DNA of 64,000 bases from Branchiostoma lanceolatum (Eukaryota > Chordata > Leptocardii > Amphioxiformes > Branchiostomatidae), in contig NC_089732.1 in NCBI RefSeq assembly GCF_035083965.1, positions 10,927,424 to 10,991,423 on the forward strand. The letters run 5' to 3'. Every line of letters begins with the position of its first letter. Positions within the stretch are counted from its first letter, which is position 1. Positions 25,985 to 58,104 of the stretch are shown here, one piece after another. The position numbers and the translations under genes were made by a program. The notes below the pieces were generated by a model, which saw only the letters and a program-made list of their open reading frames with translations, was not told the origin of the DNA and searched no databases.

Positions 25985-26613
25985 TATAAGGAAGGAAGGA
26001 AGAAATGTAAAGATTTGTTAAATGGGTCCCCTAAGATTTCAGTTTGTCCCATGTGCTACAGTGTGAATGCCTACAAGCATATCTGTCAGTATGTTTATTC
26101 ATTTATTCCTTCTACAAATTAAGACTTGAGAAGGAAGGCAGACGAATTAAGACAAGGGAAGGAAGAAAAGATTTGTTAAATGGGTCTCCTAAGACTTCAG
26201 CTTGTCCCATGGACTACATTGTTTTATGTTTGTAGACATATCTATCAGTATGTTTATTTATTTATTTATTCCTTCTAGTACAAATTAAGACTCAAGAAGG
26301 AAGACAAATTAAGACAAAGGAAGAAAGAAAAGATTTCTTAAATCAATATATGGCTCCCCTAAGACTTCATCAGCTTGTCCTATGCACTACAGTGTTGTAT
26401 GTAACATTGTCATTAAAGATATCGGCCAGTACAGCTGCAGTTAGGTTTATTTATTTATTCCTTTTACAAATCAAGACTCGGGAAGGAAGACAAATTAAGA
26501 CAAAGAAAGGAAAGATTTGTTAAATGGCTTCAGCTTGTCCTATGCGCTACAGTGGTTTATGTTTGTAGAGATATCTGTCAGTACATTTATTAATTTATGC
26601 CTTCTACAAATTA
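25985..26613 (+). repeat. Four degenerate tandem copies of about 145-180 bp
   Basis: Each unit has 'gaaggaag', 'aaagatttgttaaatgg', 'cctaaga.ttca', 'cttgtcc.atg..ctacag', 'atatc.gtcagta' and 'tttatt.atttattccttcta' followed by 'caaattaaga'. Units begin near 25985, 26128, 26293 and 26473. No ORF is kept between units. Confidence 0.85.
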
Positions 26614-37800: not shown

Positions 37801-37912
37801 TCTCAACCGAGCCATCAACCTTTGGAATACATTACCATCTAACATCAAATCATTGACAGTCCCATATCACTTTAAGAAGGCCATCTACCAGTTTGTCACC
37901 AATTATTCGTAA
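34880..37912 (+). CDS. LINE ORF2: APE endonuclease + reverse transcriptase
   Basis: 1,010 codons without a stop. The endonuclease (about residues 55-290) shows LHIAHINICSLRNKV, AVSETHLD, GGGVALYVR, VYRPPSS, GDFNIDW and the catalytic-type TDHDIVYI. The reverse transcriptase (about 555-830) shows RPISLLPTLSKVLEK, HAYRPNHST, the metal-binding YIDFSAAFD, GVPQGSCLGPL and MYADDTS. The C-terminus contains the CR1/L2-type RAINLWNTLP block. The true start may be an internal Met (the hydrophobic MGLRFF... at about 34955 or MATNDD at about 35015) rather than 34880. Intact catalytic residues suggest recent activity. This is an ordinary genomic retroelement, not a host gene. Confidence 0.92.
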   Translation: MDGRDYCCLPRATRAPPSHLVSLVAMGLRFFVLSLLTLSLILKLNMATNDDHINLSLKKKGLHIAHINICSLRNKVGEVEHLLNNNLHILAVSETHLDSSVLDGEVQIANYDIHRLDRNGRGGGVALYVRSHIPSKIRSDLSVTGIEALWIQVHLPFTKPMLIAVVYRPPSSDRAYLESLLLIIDRASREGMEICMLGDFNIDWNNSSPQKEDLSNTARSCNLSQVVNVSTRKGCNRHGHSTATCIDLVFVSSPEKYSSVNTKCWGCTDHDIVYITKNTKLPKQPPRSEYKRSYKGFNSEKFMQDIANLPWTLVELFEDVDDALDVFMLLFNTVADFHAPVRRFTVRANSVPWLDAELREAMAMRDEAKTEADKYGLHSDREVYKKLRNYVVKLNRMKKEHYFTSKMTENSKDPKHVWKLTNSLLGRSKCNSPTCVEVNGQYIVKPSQIANYFNDYYTTKTETHRKNLQSQNAPVTDLIDQHIMPDKSCGFQFHSVGTAEILRLLVNIPMSSTCGIDQLENKLVRLSAAYIASPVRHICNQSLVNHLFPDQWKRAKVCPLPKNTRITLTGNNSRPISLLPTLSKVLEKVAHNQIWQYVTLNDIVTPHQHAYRPNHSTTTALLQMTDDWLSAIDKGEIVGAVYIDFSAAFDLVDHQLLLAKLKSYGFSLGSLTWMSSYLQGRTQVVYINGHFSEPSVLECGVPQGSCLGPLIFTLFTNDLPLSVLNSTTEMYADDTSMYKAARSLSEITAALQPDLNKISEWVKSNKLVMNILKTKCMLFGSPRKLALLPSTSLDLVIGTEGIVQVKETVLLGLHITQSLTWNLHVNHTIAKQSRNIALLRRHAWAMTHDVFKVVMCALVLSVAQYCLPVLANMSDLNTRRLQVVQNRACRMLLKCAIDTPVAQMHTDLGWPTVRERFAISTLNTFFRILVSHEPQNIYSSIVPVHSTHTYSTRLSSSHSFKLPKPKTNSQKRTFLNRAINLWNTLPSNIKSLTVPYHFKKAIYQFVTNYS

Positions 37913-38072
37913 GTTAAGTTAGCAATCTGTATTTGTTATGATTATGTATATAACGTTATGTCCTTTTAATCTTGCACTGTATATATGTCTGTGTTTGTAT
38001 ACTTTTTGTGTTGAACCCTGGAAGATTAGTCGCAATTCGACTAAAGGGTATCGAAATAAACCAATAAACCAA
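34880..38072 (+). mobile_element. CR1-like non-LTR retrotransposon (LINE), intact ORF2
   Basis: An uninterrupted endonuclease-reverse transcriptase ORF is followed by a 160-bp 3' UTR that ends in short tandem 'aataaacc' units at about 38055-38070, as CR1-clade elements do in place of a poly(A) tail. No ORF1 was recognised upstream. The 3' UTR is homologous to the antisense fragment at 47508-47992, which fixes the 3' end. Confidence 0.85.
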
Positions 38073-38335
38073 TCTGACCCAAGTGCTATGAACACATACT
38101 ATTCTGTTGACTGTTGAGCCAATTCTTTGAGTTGGAAAACAGTTTATTTCTCATTTTGTAATTTACCAACTTAGATGAACCTTCAAGCTAATATTCCACT
38201 GATTGATAGCCTTCAAACCCAGGAGGACCTCAGGGTTCTGGGCCAAACACCCTAGCCAACACAACGCCACAACTGCTACCTTTTATACTAAAGACCTCCG
38301 TCCCCCCCTCCCCCAGGTGTGCTGACTCCCTGTGG

Positions 38336-41300
38336 ATGATGCTGCGCAGCTGTTTCTGCGCCCCTCGTGAGAAGGTGGTGATCAGGGTGCTGGAGTTCCA
38401 GCATGCCAACCTGGAGCACGTCCCGCCCGAGATCTTCGAGTACACCAAGTCCCTGGAGGAGCTGTACCTGGACTCCAACCAGATCAGAGACCTGCCAAGG
38501 GTACGTTAACTTTGTTTTATTTATCAGAAATATCCATTAGGCCACACTGTCCTGATTGTATGGATGACATCCGCGCACACATCAATTTTCGTCCATTTCC
38601 AAAAAAATGATAATAGAAAGTTAATTGCAAATTGTTGCCCGTAGGCTAATTGCAAATACATGATACAATTGAAAAAGGATTGACACCAATGAGGAACAGT
38701 ATAGCTTGTGACTACTCGTCTCTAGGCTAACTTCTGACACTAAATTCTACTTATTGGGTTTGGCTTCTTTTTCCAAGACAGCGTAAGACAAATGATCCCA
38801 CTTTTTAACAATAGGGTCGCGACCGTATTGTAAATCATATAAAGAAACAGCAAGATGAGGAAATATATGCCGTAAGTTAAAAAAAATATTGGAAAAGGGA
38901 TACTAATCAGCGAAGTCTTCCAAGGTCAAAGACAAAGATGTAAATGAAGATTTACACTATATATGTTCTGTGTGTTCAGTCATTTGTTCAACCTTCCTGA
39001 CCACTTAGAAGTTAGATTTAAAAAAAAATTCAAGGCATTTACTTTTTTCCCCAACTTTTTTTTCTGCACACCAGAATCATTTTTTTTGTACCTAGATGAT
39101 GTCATCCATCAATCAAATAGTGATTCACTGCCTTTTACCTCCCCAACCAAAGTGATAGTAGACGTTACACCAGTGCAGGTATATATAGAGAGAAGAAAGG
39201 TGTTTCGAGCCCTGTTGTAGAGAAGATATTTTGAAGTCAGAAAGTGAGAAAGTCTGGAGACACAGAGTCGGCTCTTGTACTTCACACAATGTCTGAAGCG
39301 ACAGGCAGACGATATAATGGATTACTGAAATTTGGATCTCGACACCTAGAAATGACCTATGAAAACTATAGGAGATAGAGTCTGCAGTGCACTTATCTAA
39401 AAGGAATATAGAGTGCCGTCACAAGTGATTCGGGTGGTCACCTTCTGAACTAGGAGTCATAAATCCTGTGTAGAGTGGCCGAATAAAATGTTAATGCCAA
39501 TATTGCACTGAATTTTTCTTTTGTGGCTGTGTGAGGCATAGCATTACGAACTTGTGTGGCCTAATGTTATATAATATTCGCCAAAAGTTAGTTACTCAAG
39601 CAACTGAATAAAATGTTGAAACAATTACTGTTTCAACATTTTATCCAGTTGCTTGAGTTGTCTTTTGGCATATCTTATTACCTGGATGTTTACCTTCATC
39701 GACGTCATATGATGATATTGATGTTTGAGTTTTTGCCTTTCCCCCTTGTTTAACCTTCTCCCTGCTACCTAACTCTGTAACCAATAGAGAATTAGGTACC
39801 AAATGGCTACTTTAGTCTGCTCAAGGTTAAAGCACTAAACTTCCTGGTTCATTTGTATGGTTTACATCTGAAGGCAGATATACAAATGTAAAGCTAACCA
39901 CACCAGAATGTCTATCACATCAAAATATGTACCACAGACCATCGACTTGATAAAAATCATTTGCCCACCCAGGTGGTACTCTCTCATGGACGATGTGGGT
40001 AAAAGTCACGTACACTACATGTGTGTTATCCACCCTGGCATGTATATGGCCATTTCCAGGACACAACCAATTACCTGGGAGGTAACCCTAGCCGTCCAAG
40101 TGGGCTTGAAGGAGTTGATTGGTAGATGTCATAACACTGTATGTCTTTGCTAGTCCCTCTGGGGGTAGCCTTCTACTGAAACCTTTACTTTTCATGTACA
40201 TTGTATTTCCCTGGAGGTCTGTCTGAAGGAAAAGATAACATGACTCATATGTTGTTGATTTTGAGCTGCTAGATAGATTATTGAATTCATATTTGGGTAT
40301 CAATTTCTCCTAGCTTTAATTGCATCTTATTGATAATTCTATTGATTTAGAAAAAAATTATTTTTGCTAAAACCATCCAAATTGCAATTCTTCTCCAGAA
40401 TACATGTATGTATGTTTCATATTCCACTGACTACCGTGTAGAAATCAGACCCTGCATCAGTTGAACTAGAAATAGCATAGTTTTAATGCCTTTGATAATC
40501 TGTTTACAGTTTACTTTATTTGTTTACTTGTTTTGAGTACTGTTGTATGATTGGAACAACGGTGTAGCCTTGGACTGCAATAAAGTTTTATTGTGTTGGA
40601 AAAAAGAAGAAATTTATGGCTCTTGGTGGCAAATGTACAGATTTCTGTGTGTTATTTTGGCACACCTTTGACAAATTAGCCAAAGAGGCTCGATGGGCAT
40701 CACTTCACCACCGGGGAGGGTTGTGTAAAGTGCCTTTCCCAAGTTCACAACATCTGGGTATGGTGAGTATCGAACCCGGGAACTGTTGGTTCTAGTCCAA
40801 CGCTCTAAATGTTACCCCAAACCGATGCCACAATTGTGTTAAAGAATATTATTAATATTTCCTTTTTTTCCCCTTCCACAGCCCCTGTTCATGTGCCATG
40901 GGCTGCAGAAACTTGGCCTGAGTGACAATGAGCTGCTGATGCTCCCGCCGGCCGTGGCCAGCCTGGTCAGTCTGGTGGAACTGGACATCAGTAAGAATGG
41001 TAAGACTGGACGGCACGTCTTGTTTGGCCCACTGGGGTTTACACACCATTATAGGCTGGCCTTGATTTACTGGTTTACATGTAGGGATGTCCCTATAGCT
41101 CAGCTGGTGGCAGCCTTCTGCTTCCAATTAGTGGGTAATTGGGAGACCCTGATTTAAATCCGGGGAGGGGCATAAGATGGGGGCCCTGTGTTCAAGGAGA
41201 TGCTACTAACTCCTCCCTGTAGAAATATTCCCTGCTATAAAAACAGCAAGGGAACTTGCTGCCCTACATACATATGTATATATATGTGCCACTATGCACT

Positions 41301-44300
41301 ACAGGGTGACTAACAAGAACTTAATTTACGTGATGGTATGTGTAGCACATTATCTAAAATGATGATATACAGTGTATAGGCATTGAGATGGGAAACATAT
41401 TATTGGCTAGGCTGTGAAATAAGTTAAGAAGACTAAGTTTGCTGCTGATTTTTTCATTATCTGTAAAATATCTAATGAGCTTTTTTATTACATATCTCTC
41501 TAGATCTTTATTCCTATATCTGATAGTTTCAGATTTTTTTTATCGTTGACTCAGACTAGACGTTTGATATAATAATAGTTACTCGACTAGGATTAAGAAA
41601 TGTTTCAAATGTTTCTCCCCAGGTATAAGAGATCTTCCAGAAAGCATCAAGGCTTGTAAGAACCTTACCTATGTGGAGGCAAGTGTCAACCCACTGGGCA
41701 AGTAAGTATGGCAGATGTTTCTTTAAGATGTATTGTTGTTTCTTCAGTGCAGTTCGGTTCAGTTCATCCTCAATGAGGTGATACTATTGTCTCCATAAGT
41801 CCCTGTCGAGAAGTTTATCAAAGGTCCCCCTAAGTACCTTCTTAGACATTTTTATACCTCATGTGTCAGTACACTGTTACTTTGTGATATATTCTTGTGA
41901 CATTCCCTCATCTTACCTGTAACTTTGTATGGTATCTATACACAGCACCAGTTTTTTGGTGTGTCATTCAGCACCAAGGACAGTCTTGTTGATTAGTAGT
42001 AACTGTCACAAAAAATATATTAAGAATCTAGCGATTTATGTCCACATAATTTCATTTGTTTTTATGTTGTTACATATTTTGTATCTCTGATACTTTTCAA
42101 AATCAATTTAAGATGAATTAATCAATCAATTTAGGTAGAATATCTGCATTGTTTTTAAATCAACTGTAGAATTCTGAAACTAGTGCCAGTAATTGCATGT
42201 TTGTTGTAGCAGCAATCTTGGACAGAAATGTACAAAGCCTACTGTAAGCAACCATTTTCCCCATGTTACATGACCAGGCTCCCAGATGGCTTCACCCAGC
42301 TGCTCAACCTGACAGAACTGTACCTGAATGACACCTTCATGGATTACCTGCCGGGAAACTTTGGCAGGTAAGGACACACTATGTTGGCTCTTAGACACTT
42401 TAAGAAAGAAATCTTGCAAGTCTCAGAGATCAGAACAAGAATACTGGAGGACAATTTGAATCTGACAATATTAGATCCAGGTAGTAGAATGGAGTATGAA
42501 TTATAACATTTGGCCCCCAGGCATATTTATCTCTCATTTCAGCATTGTTTTTTCTATTCAAGCACTTCAGATATGTTTGTATTGCTTATAAAGGATGCTA
42601 TCAGCAATGCTTATATGTCACCAAGGAGAAAATTTGAAGAAATAAGACATTTTTTTCCACTTTTTTCAATTGCTGATAGGATAGATGATGCATTGTAAAG
42701 AGTCTACAAAATAAGTAAGCCAAATTGACATTTGGACAAACCAGGAGATACATGTACGACACTGAACATGTAATCTGTGTCTCTGGTTGAATGATTGGTT
42801 GTACAATGTACTTCCCCCCTAGACTAACCAGGCTGAAGGTACTGGAAGTGAGAGAAAACCACATGAAGACACTTCCCAAGTAAGTTTCTATCTCAGTTCC
42901 AACTTCTTTTTGACTTGTGTTCTCTTAGATTTTTATTGTCATTTCTCAATTTTCAGTGTAACAGCTTTGAGAATATATATCAATCGTAATATCCGCATGT
43001 TTTTTCAGATCCATCAGTCGACTGATCTTGTTGGAGAGGCTGGACATGGGGAACAATGACTTCTCAGAACTGGTAAGTCATAAATCACATGTTACGGGGG
43101 TCTGCCCACCTGTAATTTTCAAAAAAATGTTGGAGATTGCAGAAAAAATTTTTTGGATCAACTGCCTACTTTGTAGTCTGTTTAGACTTGACTCGGTATT
43201 TAATCTATAATTAAATATATTGCACTGTGACATATTTACATGTTAGTCACTTTATGATTAACATTTTGAAATGACTATACGCTTGATACCCTTGAGGAGT
43301 TACCCTTTAACCATTAACCATTAAACATTTATATTTATTAACTATTTTACATTGTATTTTTTGTAGCCAGAGGTGGTGTGCCACATGTCCAGCCTACAAG
43401 AACTCTGGGTAGACAGCAACGCTATTCACACTTTTCCACAGGTATGTACGAATGTCTGAAATGTGGGCTTTTCTATCAAACTGATCAAACCCTTGCTGAA
43501 GTTTTAAAGTAATGTTTTATAGATTTATTTGCAATGGAGCAAATACGGATTTTAAACTGGAAAGATAACATTTGCAAGCAAATACATAATGTTTACCTTC
43601 ACAGGTCTAGCCTAACAAACTTACTGCTCAGTTTATTCTTACTCAGACACATTCATATATATGGTGACCAGGCCCTCCAGCTCTGTCCTTCCACTTGCTA
43701 CATAATGTAATCAGACATCACAGGCTGTCTGCTACTTTACCAGTAACCATGGTGACAGCATTCTGGTCCAGGTCATTGACCTTATTTGTTTGGAGAAGAA
43801 GAAGACACAGGACAAAAACAAAATATTGAATCCCTTCTGTGTAGGTAGACATAAACAAAAGCGCAACATAACAGTTTAGTAAGCTTTTTTTTTATCCACC
43901 TCTCAGGCCATAAGGTACTTACAGAGACTTAGCTTCCTGGATGCCTCCAAAAACCAGCTAGAAGACCTCCCAGAAGAAGTGGAACACCTGACCAAAATGA
44001 CGGACCTTCACCTCTCTACCAACCTCCTTCAGGACCTTCCAGCTGGCATTGGTGAGTACAACATGGCCTGGTTTTCTGTCATCTTAGACAGAGATTCTGG
44101 TTCGGTAAAAGGGAAAGGTAGCCCCATAGTCTTTTTGAGGCCGTAGGGGCAGTGGGTTGTTATCCACTGTGTCTAGGGCACATTATTGGAAGGCAGAGCC
44201 CAACCCTCTCCTTCCACTGCCTTTTACCTCCCCAACCAAAATCAGGTACCCATTTTTACACCTCAGGGTGATGTGAGGAAAGTCCTGTAAAGTGCCTTTC

Positions 44301-46627
44301 TCAGGGGCACAATATTGGTGGAATGTTGGAATTCCTGGGTCAAACATCCTAACTGTTAAGCCTTTGAAAATAATGTTGATGTCCTGGTTGATGAAATTGA
44401 AAGATTGTGAAAAGAACTTATTGAACTACATGATTGTACACTACATACATAGACTATTTTTCTATAGATTCTATCTAACATGTTCTTCTATGTGTCCAGG
44501 TGCATTAACTCAACTGGTGGTATTGAAGGTTGACGACAACCAACTCCTGTCTTTGCCACACTCTATTGGAGGGTGAGTTTGTTTATCATACCCCGGTACA
44601 ATGTGTGATCAGCCAAGAAACAGTGTAACATCCCTTGACAGCTTGATCGCTTTACTGTTTACAATTATTTCGTTACTCAACTGAATTGCAAAGCTGCGTA
44701 GAGGTGCGTTGCTACAGACTTTGAGCCTTAATGAAATAGACTGCACGATTGTATATTTCTAAATTGGGTAACTGACTACATCGTGTCTTACACCATTCAT
44801 TTCTATATAGGCTTGCTTCGCTGCAAGAACTTGATGTGTCTTACAACGATTTAGAGGTAAGGATTATTTTAATCAAGTTTAATACAGAATCTACTGATCT
44901 TTTATCAGACAACTGACTGTGCAATGAATTGTAGTGGAAGGATAATATCAGTTTTAATTCTCTAAAGACTCGAGATTAGCGTTTTAGACGAGGAAGTGAC
45001 AGTAGCTCCTGATTCTGTCTGGTCCTTTTTGTTTTTAATCACGAGGTTTCATACAGAACCTACTGAGCTCATCTTAAACATTATGACTGTGTGTGATGAA
45101 TTGTAGTAGAAGGGTTTTAGTTCTCTAGACTATATACTGTGTGTGTGCCTGATAGAGTTCAAAGTTTTTAAAAAAGGTAGTGACAATAACGCAAGTTCAC
45201 CTCTTGTCCTTTTGTTTAACCTTCTCCCTGCTGCCTAACCCTGTAACCAATAGAGAATGGGGTGCCAAACGGCTACTTCAGTGTGCTAAAGGTTAACATA
45301 AAGTAATTTTGTTGCTCGTTCGCTTGTGTACAGCACCTACCACCCACTATAGGACTGTTGCGGAGATTACGAACTCTGATCGCTGACGAGAACTGCCTCA
45401 TGGAGCTGCCAGCAGAGGTCAGGGTTCTTTGGTCATTACTCATTGAGGCATGTAGACATAAACTACTTAACAGGATCAGGTACAGATTTGGACATAATCC
45501 TCTTTATAGTATACCTGGGCCGCAATAACCTTCGAGATGGGTGTTTGGACCGGTCTTTACTTTACGGCCAGGCTTCCCTAGTTCAATTTGAGTGATTCAA
45601 ACTCGTTTTGAGTGTGGCAGTTGCACTGCTGTCAAAAAGTCGAATACCGGAGGACACAAAATTTTCTCTTCTGGTGCATTTTGCATTGACATTTTTTTTC
45701 CAGGTGGGTACGACATAAATAGAATACAACACGGTGTATTCCGTATCCGACCTTTGGGCGATCAAACCCGCAGTCAGGCTGCACTTCCTCAAGTGATAAT
45801 AAACCGTGTTGTAATGTATTCTATATAATTAGGATCAGGTTTAGGTCCAGACCTGGACATAATCCTCTACACCTGAACCAGAACTGGACCTGAATGTTCC
45901 ATACTGGTCCCCACCTATAGTATCATGACATTGAAACCTGGAAATGAACTTGAGGTACATGTGTTTGCAGCTGGGCAGCTGTAGCAGTATGACGGTGCTG
46001 TCTGTTAGAAGCAACCAGCTGGAGAGACTGCCGGACGAGATTGGCAGGATTCCCAACCTCAAGGTCATTAACGTCAGTGACAACAGGTAACACTGAACAA
46101 ATCTTAATTTGCATACCTGTGCATGCTAAGGGAGAGTAGAGCAGGAATGTGTTCCAGCTAATACAGACTCTTGTCACGGAGCCTGACGTCTTGCGGGTAT
46201 TCACTAATCTGCTGGGCGGCCTGGCACACATACCGTCAACATTTCCAGATACAATGTTGGTGGCTATTCACCTTCCTCACTTGCGAAAAAAAATGGCTTG
46301 TATCATACTTTTGTAATCGACTTCATCAGTCAGGGCGAAAATTGTGATCGAACACCTGCTCCTTCCTAACCTGATATCAATCAAGCCTCCTGTAACCGCT
46401 CACCACCCTGTAACCGATTCATCTTTAATAAAGAATTCTCATGCTTGTCATGCCTAGGCTGGAGTTCCTCCCCTTTAACTTCACCAAGCTGAAGAAGCTG
46501 TGGGCTCTGTGGTTGGCCGAGAACCAGTCCAAACCACTCATCCCCCTCCAGTCGGAGTACAACTCCAGCGTACAGGGGAGGGTGCTGACCTGCTACCTGC
46601 TACCACAGCAGCAAGGACAGGAGGATG
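38336..46627 (+). CDS. LAP gene exons 1-13: N-terminus and LRR domain
   Basis: Exons 38336-38500, 40882-40999, 41623-41701, 42278-42367, 42823-42879, 43009-43072, 43367-43441, 43907-44051, 44500-44572, 44811-44856, 45334-45417, 45971-46086, 46458-46627. Most exons encode about one LRR of 23 residues, for example [211 protein letters not shown]. The last exon ends with [14 protein letters not shown] and [10 protein letters not shown], the hallmark LAP cap. Repeat 5 of Erbin-type proteins (DANQIEELP-like) is well kept. Confidence 0.93.
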
Positions 46628-49600
46628 GTGAGACCAGTTTTTTTTGTTTGTTTCAAGGTATCCCCATTTGAAGTGAAGCATGATGCTTTTTCAAGTAGCT
46701 AGTGGTAGTTCAATGCGGCTTCGCCACGGCTCGCGTTTTTGGCCAAACACACCGGGCCACCCCTACTCTTCTCGATAAGTGTGTTGGGTTCTTTTACGTG
46801 CAGAGGTTTGACGCTTGAAGCTAATGCCTGAAGCTCCCTCATACACGGGGCCGCCGGCTTTATGTCACCATCCGAAATGACGAATGCAATCCCTTACAAC
46901 ATGTCCGAGCTGGAGTCGACACCTAGGATTGAACTCGGGCCCTAGGATCCACGGAATTTGATCCAGATGGCGAAGCAGCGGGATTGTGTTACCGCTTGCA
47001 CCACGGGGACATGTCGCAATGGTGCCTAAGTATTCATTTGAAATTTACGGAATACATACAAATTTTGCGGAATTCATACAATCCACTACTACACATATTA
47101 CGGTTTTACCAATAAAAATTTTAATAAATGTTTCTTACTGGTGGATGCAATGAATTCAGTAAAATTTGTAATGTAATCTGAATGTAATGAATTCCATAAA
47201 ATTCATACAATCCACTACTAAGAAACATGCAAAGTTTTTAGTATGTCTCGGCTGGGGATCAAACTCACGACTCTACCGTATGCAAGGCAAGCACTAGGCC
47301 ATTGCATAACCTCCAATTATTATGTTTGATAACGCATGGCTTTGTAAAAGTAAGACTTTAGACACCAAGATGTAAATCTCTATTTTTAGATCTGTACATG
47401 AGCGACAAAGACAGCTTCCATCCGTCCCTGTGGGAGGAGGAACGCCAGCTCCGCCAGACCATCCAGTTTGACGTGGTGGAGTCACCTGACAGAGAGCCAG
47501 TGGTATGTTTATTTGTGTATTATGATACCCTTTAGTAGTATCACGAGTAATCTTCCAGGGTTCATCATAGTCATATAAACATGCAGACTGCAAGATTAAA
47601 AGGATTATAAATGTAATCATAACAGAGCATATACAGATAAAAATAAGTATTAACTTAAGTTGCGAACCAGCAGATCGAGAGCCTTTTTGAAGTTGTATGG
47701 AGCGGTCAGTGATTTGATGTTGGGTGGAAGAGTGTTCCATACATTGATGGCACGGTAGAGAAAGGTTCCTGTTTGTTTTTGCTTTAGGTAGTGTGAAACT
47801 AGGAATTGGATAATTTGGTTGAGTATGCATGGGTTGAATGGACAGGAACAATGGAACTCCAAATGGTTGCTGGTTGAGTAAGACGGTTGCTTGGGAGAAG
47901 GTCTGGACTATGTAAAATGGACGAAACTGTTTCAAAGTGACCTCTGATGGCAAGTGGTTGCTTGGCCGGGTTTGACTGACAGTGTACGTATTTTTCAGGA
48001 AAGCAGCCTGCGTCGTTGCCCCACCCCCCACAGTCGAGAGCTGCGCAGTATGAAGTGTAAACTGCTGGTGGAGGACAGCGGGGTGGAGACGCCCCCCAGC
48101 GAGGTGGTCAGCACCACCAGTAGTCAGGTCGCTCCGGACGTCAGACGACCGTCGGAAGTACGGGTCAAGGAGGCCAAGCTGTCCAAACCACGATCACCAC
48201 AGACATCACCTCTCCTGAGAGAGAGACATCTCCTCTTCAAAGCTGATAAGGTAAACAATATTGGAGGGAATGATGATTTGTGACAAAAACTTTTAAGTAA
48301 TATTTTTTGTCAAAATAGTTAAGGCCTTCTTTACCTTTTGTGAAGTGCAGTTCATAACTTGAACCACTACTTTTCATCATTTATTGGTTGATATATGATG
48401 TAAAGTAATATTTTGCCTGCCAATTTTTGGTAGTTTGTCAGCTACCTTCCTTATGGCTGTTATGCTACATCCTACCACTAGGTGGAGCTGCAGCAAGAAT
48501 GTGGGCCCAAAACGTGACTATACTTTGTCTGTACAAGTCTATACTTTGTTCCCTCCTAGGAAAAGCAGCAATGAGACAATGTCACAGTGATATTTTGCCT
48601 GCCAACAATTAAGTAGTTGATCAGCCACCTTCCTTATGGCTGTTAATGCTACATCCCACCACAAGGGGGCGCTGCAGCAAGCATGTGGTCCTAAAGTGAC
48701 TGTACGTTTTGTACATTGTTCCCTCCCAGGAGAAGCAGCAACGAGACAATGGCACAGTGATATTTCGCCTGCCTACAGTTGGTAGTTGGTTAGCTATCTT
48801 CCTTGTGGCTGTAATGCTACATCCCTCCACTAAGGGGGCACTGCAGCAAGCATGTGGTCCAAAAGTGACTGTACATTGTTCCCTCCCAGGAGAAGCAGCA
48901 ACGAGACAAAGCTCGGATGCGGCGGCGCAGCGGCAGCAGCAGTATGGGGAGCGAAGATGAAGTCAGTCCTTTGGGCAAGAGGACTGTTAGTGTAAGTTTG
49001 GCGCAATATTGTGGTGAAAAATTTTGGATCATTTCATCCTTTAGAAGGGATGTTAAGCTGTTGGTCTCATGTAAGGGGAGACTTATGCCCTAAACCTCTA
49101 CACATTTAACAGCTCTAATGTTGATATTGCCTGAAGCTCTCTCGTATAGGAGGCAATCATTTTCATGTCCCAATCTGACACACTGTCTTGCTAATCAAAA
49201 GCCTTTTAAGAAAATAGATACATGTATTTGAAGAATGGTCATTACTGGTAATAGTTAATGTCAGACATTAACGATACTGTGTGCCAATGTGTACATGTAC
49301 CTTCAATCCTGCCACAAAATCTGAGTGGTCCACTGCAGGATGGAACTAAAAAATACAATATTCAAATGCTTCAACTTAGTATCTAACATCTACTAACATA
49401 ATTCAACCAGGGTACGCAATTCTGCCACCCTGAAAAGATATGTCCATAACAGATCTCCAAACCAACGTCCCCCAGTTTAATGCACTCACATGTACCGGCA
49501 GATTTCTGTAACCTGGCGGATTAATGTTAATGGAGGTTACATGTACATTGACAGGATGCAGCCTTCCTGCCACAAAATCTGAACGGCCCCCTGCAGTGCA

Positions 49601-52600
49601 AGGAGAAGCACGCGGAGACTGCTCCCGTCAGGTACCAGGAACGTGCAGTAGACGTGCCGGATCACGTGCTCCGAACACAACAGGTACTTGTTCATTATCT
49701 ACTGATAAATTTATAATGTATTGGTTTGTCTGTGAGAGACATACAGCCAGATCTGTCCAGCTAACCAATGGCAGCATGGCTATTACAAAGGACTAGCCCT
49801 GGGACATGATCAGTTTGCAAATTACGCTCAGTCCAAAACATATACAGTCAAACCTGCCTATAGCGGTCACTCAAGGGACTGGCCAAAATCGACCGCTATG
49901 GACAGGTGGCCGCTCTATAGAAACGGTTGATTTTGACCACGAGCAATAAGTGCCACACTAAGAAACATTTATTCACATACTATACATGTACAGTGTACAG
50001 TCAAACTTGGTCTACCGACCACTTCCACAAGACGACGATCGGCTCAAGATCTTGAAGATGACTGATTTCGGTCGGTCTCGATTTTTCCACAAGCATATTA
50101 TTTAAGTCCAAGTCGATCCATCGATCCGCCCCCAAACCGGAGCACATGCGACTTAAAATGTTGCCGAAGACAACCGTGTCATTTTCAATTGCGCGGTGAC
50201 ATTATTTATCGGGAAAAAATTGCGGAATATCACGGTAAAATCAGCCTGTTTGGGTTGGATTCCTTGACGGTGTGGGAAAAACAAAATGGTGCTTGAGGTC
50301 ATAGGGTCATTGGGATAGTCTACTGTAATGTAGGTGTGGGGTATGATTTTACTCTATATTAAATAGTACAATATGTAAACTTATTTCGTCAAAGAAGTTC
50401 TTTGAATGAAGAGAACACACAAACAAAGAATTGATGACTTTAAAACCTTTTTGTAGAGGATGAAAGGCGTCCGTATAATTTATAATAAAGTGCTCGCCCA
50501 TGCTACTACTAGTGAAGTAACCCAAGTAAACAAAGCGTCGGCAACATGTACCGCGCGCAAGAGACTCTTTGTCTGCAAATTTCTGGCGTCTTAGCGGTTT
50601 TGGAAATTCAAAACCCTCACCAGGGGCCAAATAAAACCATAGGCAACATTTTCATGGGTAATACTGCATGCTATAAAAAAATATAATGACAATATTTTTC
50701 TGCCGAGATTTGGAAGAAATCTTGCGGCGACCATGAGCCGCGACCGTTATCGGCAGTGTTTCCAGACCCGTGGGACCGAAAACCGTGTGGCCGCGACCGC
50801 GTTGGACAGTGACCGCTATAGACGAATTCTTAATGCTTACGTCAATGGGAAAAATCCAAGGGACCGACAAAAAGTGACCACTATGGGCAGGTGGCCGCTA
50901 TGCAAAGGTGGCCGCTAATACAGGTTTGACTGTACCTTAAATCTTGAAATGTTTGCAGTGGTTATGAAACTGCGTGTCTTGTATTTCTACTGGACAACAG
51001 TATTGTTTAAACCACAAACTTTAAACACTACAAGAACCTCCTTTCTCCTCCAACCTCAAAATCAAGTCTATGCAAAAATAAAAGAATTTACAGTACAATA
51101 AGCTAAGAACACAACAGGTGCAGGTACAGAGATGGAGCATGCCAGAAACTATCTATGATAAGAGTTCTGTTTTTTCTTAATCTCACGAACAAGAGTTTTT
51201 CCTTCTCACTGTATCCTGTCACAACACACAAAAATGAAAAAGTCTTACAAATGGAATAAAGTGGAATTATTTGCAGGTGCTTTGACTAATAGTCTATGGT
51301 CGCAGAAATGGTCACTTGCTATTATAACTGACTTTCCTGGTACATCTCCCAACTGTAACACATACATTGTACTTTGTTCAACTCCAGGTAATCTCAGCAG
51401 CTCCCCCATCCTCAGACTTCCCCCCCAGCGACTACTCCCAGATGGCGGGCAGAATGTACGCGGTCCAGCGAGGAGAGAGAGTCAAAGAAAACCGGAAGAG
51501 CGCTCCCGTGGAGCAGCTCCTGGAGGACTCTACCGCGCCGGGAAACTTGGAGGACGGTAAAATCTTCTCCTCCACACCGGACTTGTACAGACACTCTCCT
51601 CCCTCTCAGCCCACAGCTGGGGCGGACCAGAATGTCCCCCAGCCCTCTCAGCCATCTACAGCACAACAGGAACAGTTCCCAACCACAACAGCCGCATCTA
51701 AAGGCGACAGGACAATGCCCAGAAGCATCTCACAGGGGATCCAAACACAGCAGTATGGCACTCTCCCCATCATGAGCAAGTCAGAGAGCACCAAGGACTT
51801 CTCGTCGCACGAGTTCGTGTCGTCCACCCCGCCGTCCCAGCAGCTGTTGGTGACCACAGCCCCCAGTGTCTTAGCACAGCGGTCGCCCGCGCCCAAAGTC
51901 CGGCCACAACCCCCACCCAGATCCATCCTTCTGAGTACCGAACAGGTCAACAAGCTACCCAACAGCCAGTCCAAGAGCGAAGAGCTCTCCAAGTCTGTCG
52001 TCGGCGACTCGAGCAAGAACACGCCTCCTCCCGACGTGATTTTGTCGGACAGTGCGGTGACGAGAAGTGGAAAGGCTGGGACGAACGCCGCAGGTAAAAA
52101 CACCAACGTCAGCCGACTTCAGGATGACGCCCTCCCCACTACGCTATCCCAGGGGCAGCCAGTTTCTACAGCATCTCATACACTAGAGAGGCTTGTTCAG
52201 CCCGTGAGCATCTCCGAGGCGCCCATCAGTCCTGGGAACTTCCAGTCCATGACTCTGCAGAGACCACGTCCGTCTGTCCCTCCTTCTTATCAGCAAAGTC
52301 TTCGTTACTCACAACTGGCCAAACTGGGCTTCCAACCAGGTGAGCTGACAGAAATGGCTCATGCTGAGAACAAATGCATGGATGAAGGGGTGCATGAAAA
52401 CTTCTATTAACTCCTGATAGATCTAAGTGGATTAAAGTATCATACACTTACCCATCATTTGGACATGACCTATTTGATCTGGTGCATGTGATCTTGATTT
52501 GTCGGCAAACGCTTTTCACTAATAATTTGAAAGTAAAACTTCCAAAATTCAATTTTGAATAAAAATGTTGATGTTGATACCAGTACTAACAATGATATGG

Positions 52601-55600
52601 GGATGATTGAAAGTAACTGAAGTCATCTTTCAGTATCAAGTTGTTGTCAAGTTGATAGATTGTTGTGTTGATCCCTGCCCTGTAGGAAAGAGTGCATTCC
52701 GTCTACAGCACAGTAAACTACAGGATGATACCAATGCCCCTCCCTCTATCAAGGACCCCGCAGTCAGCAGTTACAGTAAACAGCCTCCACCAACCACCAG
52801 TCCTCCTTCATCCCCAAACAGGTAACTAACATCCGGTATGATTGGTGCAACTCATGCTCAATAAAATATGATGCATTCAGGGTTCTCAACAGCGTAAGGA
52901 GCATCTTAGGGTGGCAAAGCCTCATGGCAAGCTCTGCAAGTGAGAAGGTGAGGGCCACAGGCCCTAGTATTATAGGGGGTCCTTGGGTGTCTTCCCATGG
53001 AAATTTTTAAACGTATAACCCTCAGAAAGACTATTTCCTGCATTTCAAGGGCCGTTTTTTTATACCTTTGTTATAAAAACAACAGAAAAGCCCTCTATGC
53101 TGGTTGAAACACAATCATTGTTGTGGCCCAAATCACAGTGTAGGAGATACAAATCACAGCATAGGGAATCCAATCCACAACGTAGGAGCCCCCTTCTCTT
53201 TACTGCGATGGTGAGAAACCTAGATTGCATACTGGCATGTTTTGTGAACTGTAAGTGTGTGCTGTGAGTGAGAGTTAGTAAGGGAGGGAGGGAGAGAAAG
53301 TTTGTTAAGGACGATCAATCATGCTAAGAAACCTGAGCCTCTTGCATTAAAAAAAAATCTTAAGTTATCTTCTAAGAGAACCTGTAGGTCAGTAATTTCA
53401 CGATCTCTTCCTTATTTCATCAGAACAATTGCAGGGGTGCAGCATGAAACTATGGCTGAGAAAACAAGTACAACCACGCCAACAACAACTACAACTGGTG
53501 GCCATCGCGTGGTAGTGAACTTGGAGTTGACACCAGACGGGAGAGGTACATCTCAGATTCCACCGGAGGAAACGCAGCACCAAAAAAACGCAGTCGAGCC
53601 ATTGGCGAAGGAGCCTGAGGAGTCAGATGACTGGAGACACACACTTCTGAAGCAGATCGAAAATAGTATCATGCAGGCCAGGGAGGCCGGTTATCCGGTA
53701 AACAGTTCAGATGGTGAGTCGGATATCGAGAAACAGGGTAAGGAAGAGAAAAGTAAAGAGCTCTACGCTAGTTCAGAGGTACAGGAGGGAGTGGTTGATG
53801 TTAAGGGACAGGCAGCCACTCCCGAAAGTCTAGCTGAGGACAATGTGGACTCGAAAGAGAAACAAAACTACGGTTACGACGGAGATACAGAAAGTAATCA
53901 CGACGAGCAGTCGGTGGATCCGACGAACGCTGCGCAACCGGTCCAGCCGTCGGATCCAAAGTTTGCCACGACGTTCAAACAGAGGTTAGCGTACTGGCAA
54001 ACCACCTCGACCGGACAGCCCCTCGAGGGAAGAGAAGAGGATCGAAAGGTCCAGCCTGGCTCGATGCACATCCCACCCACCTTTTCTACTTTCAAAAGGG
54101 TCAGCACCCGGCCGTTTTCATACCTGGACACTGTTGAACACGAGGGGACGGACACGTACGCAGGAGGACAGGTGCCGCTATGCGCTGCAGCTACTCTACC
54201 CAGACCTACCCCCACCTACACTCAGAGTCAGGGGAACCTGGCAGCACAGCCACGGCCCAGGCAGCAGCCCATGGCCAGTAGACCAGGTACATGGACATGC
54301 ATGTATCCACAGTAGACAGTCCTTTCCATTAACCCTTATCCATCATTCATGAGGACATGAAACGGAAAATGCAAAGCAGTCGACTGAGGAGAAGCATGCC
54401 ACTTTCTTTGGTAGCTAGAAGTGCAATACATCCTTGGCTCAGCTCGCATTTTCAGCCAAGCACACGAGGTCACCCCTGCTCTCTGGATAAAGACATGAAA
54501 GAAACCTAAAAACCGTCTGTATGCCAAAATGGATTGGGTGTAGGTTCTAACACTAATGGTGTAGAGAACTAAAGTAGTGCTAAATACATGACGTACAAGT
54601 ATAGCTTGGTTCATGGCTAAAATATGCAACGTACATGTATTTGACCACCTAGAACTTGTTCTTTTTTATAAAAAAAACTGGCATCGCTCCAAACTTGTAA
54701 TAACGACAACTTGGTGTTACAGGAACAGGGAAGCGGCCCCCCACCCCTCCGACCCGGGTCAGCAGTGTTCTGACCTCCTCCGTCCAAAGTTTACCAGTGT
54801 CCACCACCTCTACCTTACAGAAGAGTAGTACTAGTGGTCAGCCTCGCCCAAAGTCAACATCTAACAACTATGTATGTATAGTCATCCCATATGTTAGGTG
54901 ATGATAAGAGTAGAAGTATTAGTGCTGTAAGTTTTTAATGATATGTATGTAAGTTGAAACAGAAGGCTCTGCTTGAAAACATGAATATGAAAACAGTATG
55001 GTAATCACACCATTATGTTAAATTAAGTTGAGCACAGTTCTCCTACCTTCCTTCTTTCACTCAGTAGAATTCTTATAAGATACACTATCTGTGTGCTCTT
55101 CTTCCTTGATAATGAAACCTGAAGACAAGTATTGCCTTTGTTGACAGTTGACGGTGACTATCGAAAAGAAACCAGGTTTAGGATTCAGCATTGCAGGAGG
55201 GATTGGATCATGTGGCAACCCTTACAATCCTGAAGATACTGTAAGTTATGTTATGAATATGATGTGTTCATGATCTGCTAATGTCTGAAGCAAAATGTCT
55301 GATTTGTTGGAAAATACATACTGTTGACTCATAAGCACTGTTGATAGATTAATTACGCTCACTCATGGTTTGGTTTATTGTCTTTTCTTTAAGTAACAAT
55401 ATGAACATTTTCTATGTTAATTGGCATGATATGATTTCTCTTTCACAGTAGGTTAAGACAGTAGTAGTTCCCAGTATTTGAAAGTTTTTGTTTGATAAAG
55501 AAGTTTGATATTAGGTCTTTTACATTGTGTATTAGTCATTTTAGTAAAGAAATTGACCAAAGGAAAGATGGTTGTACAGATTTGCATATATGCATCAGCT

Positions 55601-58104
55601 GGTAAAAAAAAGTCAAATGTTAATCCAATTTGCTTGCCACTCAAATCACTAGAAGTAGTAAGCCTTTTGATGCTTCACTATTCTATGCTTAATGTAAGTC
55701 CATCTCTTTCAGGGAATTTTTGTAACCAAAATCCTACCTGGAGGGCCAGCTGATGGTAAATTGTCACCAGGAGACAAGATATTACAGGTAAACCCTCCCA
55801 CATAACTACATGTCTCTGTCCTTGGTACTAAACCCTCCCCTCTTAACCACATGTCTCTGTCCATGGTACTAATCCCTCCACACATAACCACATGTCTCTG
55901 TCCTTAGTACTAAACACTCCATACATAACCACATGTCTCTGTCCTTGGTACTAAACCCTCCTTCCATAACCACATGTCTCTGTCCTTGGTACTAAACACT
56001 CCCCACATAACCACATGTCTCTGTCCTTGGTACTAAACCCTCCCCACATAACCACAAGTCTCTGTCCTTGGTACTAAACCCTCCCCACATAACCACATGT
56101 CTCTGTCCTTGGTACTAAACCCTCCCCATATAACCACATGACTCTGTCCTTGGTACTAAACACTGCCCACATAACCACATGTCTCTGTCCTTGGTACTAA
56201 ACACTCCACACATAACCACATGTCTCTGTCCTTGGTACTAAACCCTCCCCCACATAACCACATGTCTCTGTCCTTGGTACTAAACCCTCCCCATATAACC
56301 ACATGTCTCTGTCCTTGGTACTAAACACTGCCCACATAACCACATGTCTCTGTCCTTGATACTAAACACTCCAAACATAACAACTGTCTCTGTCCTTGGT
56401 ACCAATTTTTCTGCTGTCACAGTGTCTGGTATGAGCAAAAAAACAACAGTCGCAGTGTGTGTGTGGAACACATGTACACGTGTTTGTAATTACCAGGGAA
56501 ATGGTGTCCTCTTGGGTGTCCCCTGCAAAAGGAGGGTGTCTAACATCTTTGTTTTCTTAGTGTAAGGCGTCCAAAAGACACCCTGCTAACTAATAGGGAT
56601 GCGTACCGGTTATAAAGGTCCGGTTATTACCTGAAAAAACGTTTCGGTTCAGGTCCAAAAAACCGAAACCCAGTTTTCCGTTTTTTTTGGTACTGGACCG
56701 GTAAAAAAATCTAGCACTCACATTATATCTTTTTCGTTCTAGAGCATCTTAAACCTTCCGTAAATCGCAAAATTTGCGCTCGAAAAAGACGACGTTTGCC
56801 ATTCATGGCGGTCATATTATCTGCATGCTGAGGTACAACAAGCAATCTTTCCCGAAAACGATCTTTTCTCCGTGAAAATATCCCAGCACCACCACAAGAC
56901 AATGTATCAGGTCATGAAATATGTTGTGATTAGTAAAGAATATTCCTATCGCGGTAGATACACCGTTAGATTGTGCAAAACACGATCAAAATTGGCGTTC
57001 TCGACACCGATCGAGGCGCTAGGCGCCATATTTGTTTTGAATTAGCTGCTCTCGCGAGATTTGATATTAAGAATAGGTTACATGCAAGGTCAGCTGACCT
57101 AGACAGCGAGACTTCGCGAGACTTCATGACCTTTCACCCACAACCGCGGGAACTGAAGTGAGAAGACGTGACGAACTGTTTTCATTGACGCTTGCGCATA
57201 TAAAGATGTCATCCCGCAGCATAAAACGGAAAAGGCAAAATCTGTCCGGGGCAGGAGAAGCTGGCTATTATTTTTCTGCCACAAATTGGATAAAGATGGC
57301 TTGATCGTGGCAATCAGGGATATGTTTCTGCAGTGGGCCTCCCAAAAGGACTGTGATATCCTGTGATATCAGCGGTGCGGGACTTGCTGCTAATGAACTT
57401 CTAATGAATACCAGGTGCCTTGATCAGATGAAGGGCATGCCAGAATGTCAAAAGGCCGAGTTCAGAGAGAAATTCAAGTATATATTTTTTCAATTTTTTT
57501 TTTTGCATGTGATTTTTAAAAAATGTGATTTGTGTTGGACTCCAACTTGACAAAGTCTAATCTCATTTATTGGTTTCCTTTAAAAAGTGATTTTGCACTG
57601 GAAAATATTTTTCATTTCACAGTCTTGACCAGTAATTATTACTTATTTCGTTCATTTTTAAGAACTTTAATAATTCTACCTTATTCTGATAGAAGAAAGC
57701 AACAGACTTAGCATTGTGTTATACTCTCAGGTTAGTGTACAATAACATGATATCAGTCTTGGTCTATGACAAACAGCGTTACACTGGTATAAAAGTACAT
57801 GTATGTGTATCACAGTGCAATGTAAGAACACTCCAAGTACTAGTAAATAGAAGTTTGGCAATTAGTCAGATATGCCATGGGTTCAGGTCGGACCTAATAG
57901 GTCCGGACCTGAACCTAAACTTTTAGGTTCAGGTCCGGACCTGAACCTGAAAATGGATTTAGGTCCGCATCCCTACTAACTAATAGTGTGCCCCTGTGTG
58001 TGTAGGTGGAGCAGTATGACTTTACCCAGGTGGAGCATGACCAGGCTGTGATGCTGCTGAGAGCCATGCCGAGATCGGTCACCCTCGTCATCGAGAGAAG
58101 ATAG
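38336..58104 (+). CDS. LAP-family scaffold: LRRs + LAPSD + single PDZ (Erbin/Densin-180 ortholog), 24 coding exons
   Basis: LAP proteins anchor at basolateral or synaptic membranes and organise receptors and junctions. Summed exon lengths are 4,245 bp, which is 1,414 residues in one frame, close to human Erbin (about 1,412). Order: [13 protein letters not shown] (a cysteine-bearing N-terminus, as in Erbin/Densin/Scribble, where it can be palmitoylated), about 16 LRRs, the LAP-specific domain, a long Ser/Pro/Gln-rich disordered part and one C-terminal PDZ. A single PDZ excludes Scribble (four PDZs), and the presence of a PDZ excludes LANO/LRRC1. Amphioxus would be expected to have one co-ortholog of Erbin and LRRC7, so no single symbol is given. 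The first coding exon is preceded by an acceptor at 38316, so 5' UTR exon(s) lie upstream. Exon blocks are listed in the three entries that follow. Confidence 0.93.
38535..39566. mobile_element. Composite element: cattaggccacac TIRs enclosing family T copy E
   Basis: Outer ends 'cattaggccacac' (38535) and 'gtgtggcctaatg' (39554) are perfect 13-bp inverted repeats. Inside, 38555-39119 is the most complete family T copy: the left TIR 'gattgtatggatgacatcc', then 'atcaattttcgtccatttcc', 'gaggaaatatatgccgtaag', 'ttgttcaaccttcctgacca' and the right end 'gatgtcatccatcaatcaaa'. It lies 35 bp past coding exon 1 of the LAP gene. Confidence 0.65.
39568..39712. repeat. Long hairpin in LAP intron 1
   Basis: Arms with 'gccaaaag', 'actcaagcaactg' and 'aaaatgttgaaaca' repeat inverted after a 5-base loop. 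The right arm continues to 'catatcttattacctggatg'. Inverted, the sequence matches 58270-58350 in the LAP 3' UTR ('catccaggtaataagatatg', 'ccaaaaagagttactcaagc'). Confidence 0.8.
39750..39830 (+). mobile_element. TTAA-bounded mini-element, copy 2
   Basis: 81 bp: 'ttaaccttctccctgctacc', 'tctgtaaccaatagagaatt', 'aggtaccaaatggctac', ending 'tgctcaaggttaa'. Same family as 32954-33028 and 45216-45296. Confidence 0.8.
39831..40680. other. LAP intron 1, nothing recognised
   Basis: No coding content beyond short random frames. Confidence 0.5.
40685..40815. repeat. Fragment of a dispersed repeat related to 44106-44345
   Basis: 'ggggagggttgtgtaaagtg', 'cctttccc', 'ttcacaacat', then 'gaacccgggaactgttggtt' resemble 'gtaaagtgcctttctcaggg', 'gcacaatatt', 'cctgggtcaaac' at 44287-44345. 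Probably an old SINE or LINE tail. Confidence 0.45.
41085..41325 (+). mobile_element. tRNA-derived SINE, copy 2
   Basis: The head 'tccctatagctcagctggtg' is an A-box-like segment, and 'gatttaaatccggggag', about 50 bp further, is B-box-like, as in a tRNA gene. The body has 'ccctgctataaaaacagcaa', 'gggaacttgctgccctacat' and 'gtgccactatgcactac', matching 11494-11800. It sits 85 bp after the donor of LAP exon 2, sense orientation. No acceptor-stem pairing was found, so it is not called a functional tRNA. Confidence 0.75.
44106..44345 (+). repeat. Dispersed repeat in LAP intron 8
   Basis: 'cactgccttttacctcccca', 'accaaaatcaggtacccatt' and 'gtaaagtgcctttctcaggg'. The first block recurs at 39127-39150 and the last at 40720. 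It has the look of a SINE tail; the head is unclear. Confidence 0.5.
45216..45296 (+). mobile_element. TTAA-bounded mini-element, copy 3
   Basis: 81 bp, the best-preserved copy: 'ttaaccttctccctgctgcc', 'taaccctgtaaccaatagag', 'aatggggtgccaaacggcta', 'gtgtgctaaaggttaa'. It ends 37 bp before LAP exon 11. Confidence 0.8.
46690..47013 (-). mobile_element. tRNA-derived SINE (second family), antisense
   Basis: Read on the minus strand from 47013: 'atgtccccgtggtgcaagcg' (A box), 'gtaacacaatcccgctg', then 'cccgagttcaatcctagg' (B box), then a body with 'ttcgtcatttcggatggtga', 'gagggagcttcaggcattag' and 'ggtggcccggtgtg'. Body pieces recur at 49090-49190 and 54435-54490. It is within LAP intron 13. Confidence 0.7.
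47122..47312 (-). mobile_element. Foldback plus tRNA-like SINE head
   Basis: 47122-47226 can fold ('gtttcttactggtggatgca' against inverted 'atccactactaagaaac'). 47233-47312 read on the minus strand gives 'ggaggttatgcaatggccta', 'gtgcttgccttgcat', 'gagtttgatccccagcc', which has tRNA-like A and B boxes. It probably represents one more SINE head beside a MITE. Confidence 0.5.
47390..54871 (+). CDS. LAP gene exons 14-21: LAP-specific domain and disordered linker
   Basis: Exons 47390-47502, 47999-48250, 48890-48991, 49555-49683, 51388-52339, 52686-52821, 53424-54286, 54723-54871. Exon 14 reads [20 protein letters not shown], the LAPSD segment seen in Erbin/Densin; exon 15 begins [18 protein letters not shown], matching the Erbin RYPTPYPDELK region. 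Exon 16 is basic, then Ser/Glu-rich ([16 protein letters not shown]). Exons 18 (952 bp) and 20 (863 bp) are long, Pro/Ser/Thr/Gln-rich and unlike known domains; they include PPPRSILL and [10 protein letters not shown], possible SH3 or WW ligands, and a KQRLAYWQ segment in exon 20. Exon 16 and exon 17 both have partial upstream duplicates (see the repeats at 48405 and 49302). Confidence 0.87.
47508..47992 (-). mobile_element. 5'-truncated CR1-like LINE fragment, antisense in LAP intron 14
   Basis: The minus strand encodes [16 protein letters not shown] with flanking residues matching the C-terminus of the intact LINE ORF at 34880-37912, then a 3' UTR with 'ccttttaatcttgca', 'tgaaccctggaagatta' and 'actaaagggtat' as in that element. 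Frameshifts split the coding remnant. It fills nearly the whole intron, from 5 bp after the donor to 7 bp before the next acceptor. Confidence 0.9.
48405..48905 (+). repeat. Tandem triplication of an intron/exon boundary (decoy acceptors of LAP exon 16)
   Basis: A unit of about 160-168 bp recurs three times: 'atattttgcctgcc', 'accttccttatggctgt', 'atgctacatcc', 'gctgcagcaagcatgtggtc', 'gttccctcccaggagaagca', 'gcaacgagaca'. Each ends with an acceptor and the first codons of exon 16 (E-K-Q-Q-R-D). Acceptors lie at about 48560, 48729 and 48889. Only the third continues into the full exon; the first two run into 'atg.cacagtgatatt' instead. Confidence 0.9.
49302..49341 (+). repeat. Partial duplicate of LAP exon 17
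   Basis: 'cctgccacaaaatctgagtg' + 'gtccactgcag' matches the start of exon 17 at 49567 ('cctgccacaaaatctgaacg' + 'gccccctgcag') with three or four mismatches. It lies about 250 bp upstream in the same intron. Confidence 0.75.
49385..49548 (-). repeat. Dispersed repeat shared with 9148-9390, abutting exon 17
   Basis: Minus-strand copy ('gtaacctccattaacattaa', 'ggttacagaaatctgcc', 'gttggtttggagatctgtta', 'catatcttttcagggtggca', 'gaattatgttagtagatgtt'). It ends just before the acceptor of LAP exon 17 at 49554. Confidence 0.75.
49845..50932. mobile_element. Non-autonomous DNA transposon, TIR cagtcaaacctg, TA target
   Basis: 1,088 bp starting CAGTCAAACCTG and ending CAGGTTTGACTG, flanked by TA on both sides (49843-49844 and 50933-50934). 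The termini continue with 'tagcggtcac', 'aggtggccgct' and 'ggtggccgctaatacagg' subterminal repeats. TIR and TA duplication fit the Tc1/mariner superfamily (pogo/Tigger-like). No transposase ORF. It is in LAP intron 17. Confidence 0.85.
50935..51387. other. LAP intron 17, remainder
   Basis: Nothing recognised other than the acceptor 'ttcaactccag' before exon 18. Confidence 0.5.
54418..54500 (-). repeat. Partial copy of the second SINE family
   Basis: 'ggctcagctcgcattttcag', 'ccaagcacac' and 'ggtcacccctgctctc' resemble 46715-46775 ('cacggctcgcgtttttggcc', 'aaacacaccgggccacccct'). It is in LAP intron 20. Confidence 0.5.
55148..58104 (+). CDS. LAP gene exons 22-24: C-terminal PDZ domain
   Basis: Exons 55148-55240, 55713-55787, 58006-58104. 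The peptide [20 protein letters not shown] carries the GLGF-type carboxylate-binding loop; [30 protein letters not shown] and [12 protein letters not shown] follow the Erbin PDZ order, and the protein ends VTLVIERR, immediately after the domain. Erbin-type PDZ domains bind C-termini of ErbB2 and p120-catenin-family proteins; the ligand here is inferred only. The last intron contains both a minisatellite and a hAT element. Confidence 0.93.
55788..56402 (+). repeat. 41-42-bp minisatellite starting at a splice donor
   Basis: About 14-15 units of 'cacataaccacatgtctctg' + 'tccttggtactaaaccctcc'. The first unit begins inside the donor of LAP exon 23: the exon ends ...'attacag', and the intron starts 'gtaaaccctcccacataact', which is itself the phase of the repeat. 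Confidence 0.95.
56594..57975. mobile_element. hAT-superfamily DNA transposon, non-autonomous
   Basis: 1,382 bp with termini 'tagggatgcg' and 'cgcatcccta', flanked by a perfect 8-bp target duplication CTAACTAA (56586-56593 and 57976-57983). Subterminal 'ggttcaggtcc' repeats include the palindrome 'aggttcaggtccggacctga'. No intact transposase; a short frame near 57207 ([12 protein letters not shown]) may be a remnant. It lies in the last LAP intron and ends 22 bp before the acceptor of exon 24. Confidence 0.9.

Follow-up and report, generated by a model that had tools for sequence, protein, structure and literature searches.

Gene and exon structure

On the plus strand of the window, the whole 64,000-nt stretch of DNA that was analysed, lies a gene whose leucine-rich repeat exons begin at about 38369 and which has a PDZ exon at 55145. 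We assign genes to the LAP (LRR and PDZ) group when LRR exons precede an Erbin-like PDZ encoded on one strand, which is the order found here, and as judged from these predicted exons the host gene is an Erbin/Densin-like LAP scaffold gene. Like Erbin and Densin-180 (LRRC7), it has leucine-rich repeats, a linker and a PDZ exon, and the best PDB matches of the PDZ exon are to Erbin (E 1.4e-07) and LRRC7 (E 4.8e-07). The LRR query gave 341 PDB matches, of which the 60 listed belong to LRR proteins of diverse types, with SHOC-2 among the best; because no LAP protein is among these 60, the LRR match is not specific for LAP. Searched by itself, the 32-residue PDZ piece hit no Pfam family at a threshold of 0.01, and the linker exons 15 and 16 had no Pfam match. 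The exons that concern us are:

47999–48250, plus strand: exon 15, an open frame of 84 codons bounded by AG and GT, 3' end in phase 0; part of the linker that follows the leucine-rich repeats
48890–48991, plus strand: exon 16, 102 nt, 34 codons, phase 0, donor AGT/GTAAGT; its first 20 nt belong to a repeat unit
49597–49683, plus strand: exon 17, 29 codons, keeping the phase of exon 16
55145–55240, plus strand: opening part of the PDZ domain encoded by the LAP gene; best PDB matches Erbin and LRRC7 (Densin)

The exon at 48890–48991 is the sixteenth coding exon found, once exons 5 and 7 are included, and its flanking introns measure 639 nt (intron 15) and 605 nt. Altogether 18 LAP acceptors were found; 16 entered the tests for copies and 15 the acceptor PWM, from which exon 16 was deliberately left out. 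Exons 5 and 7 were found afterwards and are absent from both, and the introns listed as 42368–43008 and 43073–43906 are too long because each contains one of these two exons.

A tripled intron end and exon start

The end of intron 15 and the start of exon 16 (48398–48909) consist of three head-to-tail copies of one segment. Each copy starts with AGTRATATTTYGCCTGCC, continues into a pyrimidine tract (TTGTTCCCTCC[CT]AG) and closes with the first 20 nt of exon 16, so that every unit comprises 140–162 nt of intron end plus a 20-nt exon copy:

48398–48579, plus strand: unit 1, 182 nt; AG at 48558–48559, exon copy 48560–48579, in-frame TGA at codon 5
48580–48749, plus strand: unit 2, 170 nt; AG at 48728–48729, exon copy 48730–48749 identical to the start of exon 16
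48750–48909, plus strand: unit 3, 160 nt; the only unit running into the whole of exon 16
48750–48889, plus strand: unit 3 without its exon copy, 140 nt of intron that end in the exon 16 acceptor

These sizes take the copy junctions as boundaries, with the left edge of the array blurred by divergence (within 48397–48404). The acceptor AGs end at 48559, 48729 and 48889, giving spacings of 170 and 160, and TRF reports 48542–48909 as a repeat of period 170 (2.2 copies, score 513). The tripling of the intron end and exon start is real: pairwise alignments of the units scored 174 (U1–U2), 217 (U2–U3) and 138 (U1–U3), against a maximum of 26 for the first two pairs and 28 for the third when the first partner was dinucleotide-shuffled 200 times.

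Much of the first-pass annotation of this locus survives the closer measurement. Its unit that crosses the intron–exon border is confirmed as intron end plus 20 nt of exon 16, as is its statement that only the last copy leads into the whole exon, at 48890–48991. It was right to count three tandem units, although not in giving them 160–168 bp, as the sizes above show. Its acceptors at about 48560, 48729 and 48889 stand for the last two and are one base off for the first. The E-K-Q-Q-R-D codons that it placed in every unit are present in units 2 and 3; in unit 1, CGA has become TGA and the frame reads E-K-Q-Q-stop. The gene carrying the array otherwise reads open.

When up to 2000 nt on each side of 16 acceptors of this gene was scanned for copies with 100 simple (mononucleotide) shuffles, an upstream copy scored above all shuffles at two, those of exon 16 (94) and exon 17 (44), with a null maximum of 24 in each case, and a downstream copy at none of the 16. 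Exon 16 is also the one exon in 16 whose first 20 nt recur in the preceding intron with at most four mismatches (2 and 0 mismatches in its two copies); for the acceptor at 52709, whose donor is unknown, only about 109 nt upstream was scanned for such exon-start repeats.

The exon 17 copy is an observation in its own right. It spans 32 nt (49307–49338 against 49565–49596, 88% identical, 258 nt upstream), ends exactly at the AG and, unlike that of exon 16, includes no exon bases. Between the two exon 17 acceptor copies, 49367–49494 resembles part of 9050–9480 in reverse complement, and the region also matches 9274–9380 and 9151–9202.

Both copy borders within the array carry one novel junction, ACAATG[T/G]CACAGTGATATTT, which is absent from the exon itself and has diverged between the copies (TGTCACA and TGGCACA). 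This bears on whether the array is an assembly error in which haplotypes of the intron end, two or three of them, were placed next to each other. False duplications are a known problem, according to the excerpt consulted of PMC9516828, but separate haplotype joins are not expected to fall at the same base twice, and a shared junction that has itself diverged argues further against such an error, which we regard as very unlikely.

The unit might also be a dispersed mobile or protein-binding repeat that ends at the exon by chance. Each unit contains a CCAC[TA]AGGGGGCGCTGCAG-like core (48475–48488, 48659–48672 and about 48828–48842), which we take to resemble the CTCF consensus, so that a CTCF-like CCACNAGGGGGCGC core could have been amplified. 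Units 1 and 2 match the consensus CCASYAGRKGGCRS with one mismatch, and the window holds 3 such matches against 0.45 expected, with at least three in 1 of 100 shuffles. The two matches in the array are, however, copies of each other, the third lies elsewhere (45409), and the core of unit 3 has an inserted base. The edge of the copy is moreover not a repeat edge, because the copy includes exon codons. A mobile element was rejected, as the unit does not recur in the window apart from a single 16-nt match (41–56). Exact-match probes from the unit found nothing in viral, bacterial and archaeal DNA collections, which says little for an animal repeat. Taken as a whole, a dispersed repeat is extremely improbable.

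Splice signals of the three copies

The first-pass annotation had described the acceptors as competing. All three appear usable, with PWM scores of 6.7, 10.5 and 9.0 for units 1, 2 and 3, against 0.1–10.0 for the 15 other LAP acceptors, each left out in turn. They are the top three among the 56 AGs of 48251–48991, and by this local PWM the acceptor of unit 2 lies slightly above that of exon 16 itself. Candidate branch points (GTGAC) lie 42, 30 and 21 nt upstream of the AG end in units 1, 2 and 3, with an equally scored CTAAA at 35 in unit 2 and also a CTAAG at 56 in unit 3. Unit 1 has an extra AG between its branch-point candidate and its acceptor, 22 nt before the latter.

The exon 16 donor scores 7.2, within the 2.9–11.0 of the 15 other donors (each left out; both matrices were built on 15 sites from the LAP gene). 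The GTGATA donors at the copy borders, after 48586 and 48756, score 0.4, below all 15 others and at a level reached by 42% of the 1105 GTs in 38001–56000. A further GT after 48864 (AAA/GTGACT) scores 4.0, but from there only 25 nt remain up to the point where the third acceptor ends.

An RNA structure was considered and rejected: intron 15 plus exon 16 folds with a z of −1.39 (2 of 20 shuffles matched or exceeded its stability), and no Rfam family reached the gathering threshold in 47000–50500.

Predicted products of the upstream acceptors

Splicing from acceptors 1, 2 and 3 to the exon 16 donor would give exons of 432, 262 and 102 nt. The first adds 330 nt in frame, with TGA as its fifth codon, and the second adds 160 nt, shifting the frame to a stop within exon 16; either decoy, used without a new donor, would therefore lead to a premature stop. 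Shorter products need a donor inside the array, and those that use the GTs at the copy borders are:

48560–48586, plus strand: candidate piece of 27 nt between acceptor 1 and the GT at 48587, EKQQ-stop-DNVT
48730–48756, plus strand: candidate 27-nt in-frame open microexon, EKQQRDNGT; weak donor ACA/GTGATA

An alternative GT at 48581 in unit 1 gives a 21-nt piece that also includes the stop. Set against the pattern of a neuronal-type microexon, a short in-frame exon with acceptor and donor, the microexon-like insert proposed in the first-pass annotation would be a 27-nt piece with a weak donor, open and in frame in unit 2 and interrupted by a stop in unit 1. Unit 2 is thus the only decoy from which an open in-frame insert could come. 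In unit 2 it would place EKQQRDNGT before the EKQQRDKAR of exon 16 in an open frame. Acceptor 2 to the GT at 48865 would give a second open, in-frame piece, of 135 nt (donor 4.0); because the third acceptor ends after just 25 nt more, this piece would have to splice to exon 17, replacing exon 16. Further pieces that run from acceptor 2 and stay open and in frame are 75, 81 and 141 nt long, with donors of −0.7, 1.7 and 1.1.

Premature stops of this kind could serve as a brake, with some transcripts spliced to 48560 or 48730 and then destroyed, lowering the amount of LAP protein, perhaps under regulation. The usable scores of all three acceptors and the early stops of both extensions fit such a role. 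The same property is nevertheless common to any decoy acceptor, nothing observed points to regulation, and acceptor 1 shows no constraint (see below); we consider a brake unlikely.

Divergence and constraint

Identity over intronic columns is 84.4% for U1–U2, 82.3% for U1–U3 and 89.4% for U2–U3, and a three-way comparison of 113 gap-free intronic columns assigns 11, 3 and 7 unique changes to U1, U2 and U3, respectively. Against these rates we compared the 40 nt that span the acceptor and exon start. Unit 1 has 5 unique changes there, one of them the in-frame stop, where the intronic columns predict 3.89; it has changed at about the intron rate and so shows no constraint. Unit 3, the presumed real site, has none against 2.48 expected (P 0.077), which leans toward constraint, and unit 2 has none against 1.06 expected (P 0.34), which is not significant.

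Units 2 and 3 are identical over these 40 nt (for a terminal run P is 0.0085, uncorrected, and for a run of this length at any position 0.11). We dropped selection on unit 2 as the explanation after the comparison of rates: the identity would largely reflect a constrained unit 3 beside a young unit 2. Given the two P values, weak constraint or gene conversion may still have acted on unit 2. The earlier suggestion that the copies have any effect is not borne out, given the stop in unit 1, its drift at about the intron rate and the weak GT (0.4) that ends the 27-nt piece in both decoys.

One reading that gives unit 2 a function makes it a nascent in-frame microexon (48730–48756) followed by a 133-nt intron, with unit 1 an older, dead attempt that acquired a stop. 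The piece is a multiple of three, open and in phase 0, its peptide reads on into exon 16, its acceptor is strong (10.5), and the same topology gave a real intron in potato RdRp (excerpt of PMC4974935). Set against this, its donor scores 0.4 where 15 others score 2.9–11.0 and 42% of 1105 GTs do as well, every third GT would be expected to give a length divisible by three, and unit 2 has no significant excess of conservation. We hold this microexon to be improbable. An exon birth in progress, in which an acceptor and six codons before a GT were supplied, unit 2 yields either the 27-nt microexon or the 135-nt exon that replaces exon 16, and unit 1 was killed earlier by its stop, seems to us improbable to the same degree. 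If true, it would offer a natural three-step series for studying the recruitment of new exons, and if unit 2 is spliced, a single duplication can give a gene a ready-made microexon.

Proposed origin and fate of the array

Two neutral tandem duplications over the intron–exon border, with exon 16 still defined from the third acceptor and the array without selected function, are the reading that we consider likely. A segment of 160–182 bp, which starts within intron 15 and extends to base 20 of exon 16, would have been tandemly duplicated twice: a first duplication would have produced unit 1 and the ancestor of units 2 and 3, and a later one, via the same junction, units 2 and 3. We infer this order from the shared junction and the identities between units. 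Because the same junction was used, the later step was probably unequal crossing-over between copies. Another tandem duplication with a comparable period lies at 26009–26343 (period 158 bp, 2.1 copies, 80% matches), so the duplication at exon 16 is not the sole one in the window.

The third copy would keep the real acceptor, being the only one that continues through the complete exon to that exon's good donor. Acceptors 1 and 2 have a good pyrimidine tract but would lead into a 20-nt exon stub and then intron sequence. Most likely they are bypassed by exon definition, or are rarely used and their products removed as premature-stop transcripts; the two extra splice acceptors are probably unused. 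We infer both neutrality and the choice of splice site, and the array would simply be drifting.

Evidence from other systems bears on this forecast in both directions. According to the excerpts consulted of PMC9225289, recognition switches from intron to exon definition at an intron length of about 250 nt, and between long introns the sites nearest across the exon are favoured. With introns of 639 and 605 nt, beyond that switch, exon 16 is likely to be recognised across itself, if by analogy the rule applies to this animal. The same excerpts describe an overall preference for upstream 3' splice sites, which between long introns and at near-equal strengths is significantly reduced, not reversed, and this preference weakens any confident forecast of bypass; the classical proximity rule to which its discussion refers also counts against bypass. 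A closer parallel is given by duplicated beta-globin 3' splice sites in vitro: where 14, 55 or 205 nt of exon followed the upstream copy, splicing was very inefficient and used the downstream site only (excerpt of PMC5389562, which also notes that the length of the upstream exon piece is reported to affect the choice of site). By analogy, acceptors 1 and 2, with their 20-nt stub, would be bypassed as in those constructs.

Comparison with known duplications

The kind of gene-structure mutation seen here is already known, and the array adds a third copy and a failed copy in an animal gene. Among the literature matches listed, no title or abstract opening describes this locus.

The nearest counterpart, as presented in the excerpt of PMC4974935, is a tandem duplicate over an intron–exon border in potato RdRp, where the new intron is proven by 106 RNA-seq reads. 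There, as here, the duplicate crosses the border between an intron and the next exon, the branch site, pyrimidine tract and AG are copied from the parent intron, and the copies differ at some sites. Potato RdRp has two copies and recruited a cryptic GTAAG donor from the upstream exon piece, whereas the array has three copies, a 20-nt stub and weak border donors; one of its stubs carries a stop, and it lies in an animal gene. The Rogers-type duplication of an AGGT-containing exon segment, described in the same excerpt, resembles the array in that tandem duplication supplies splice signals. It differs in that the segment duplicated here is mostly intron, its stub lacks AGGT, and the acceptor was copied rather than made anew. 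The beta-globin constructs (Reed and Maniatis 1986, as cited in the excerpt of PMC5389562) share tandem 3' splice sites with a truncated exon piece after the upstream one; the array is natural, has three copies and lies in a LAP gene. If the decoys of the array are silent, it amounts to a natural duplicated-acceptor experiment, with three similar acceptors 160–170 nt apart, one of which has a full exon.

Other features of the window

Just upstream of the LAP exons and on the same strand, an open frame of 1025 codons (34835–37909) contains an endonuclease (PF03372) and a reverse transcriptase (PF00078) domain, from which we take it to be a non-LTR retrotransposon. Two minisatellites are present, one of 41 bp × 15 at 55789–56402, about 550 nt beyond the first PDZ exon, and one of 44 bp × 18 at 13270–14059. 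A 168-bp tandem repeat of 2.8 copies at 20197–20673 has a consensus that resembles putative C2H2 zinc fingers. The motif TACATGTA occurs 21 times against about 1.8 expected from base composition, an abundance that we presume to be lancelet-like. On the minus strand, 62232–62786 encodes Tim29, a subunit of the inner mitochondrial membrane translocase (PF10171, E 1.8e-57).
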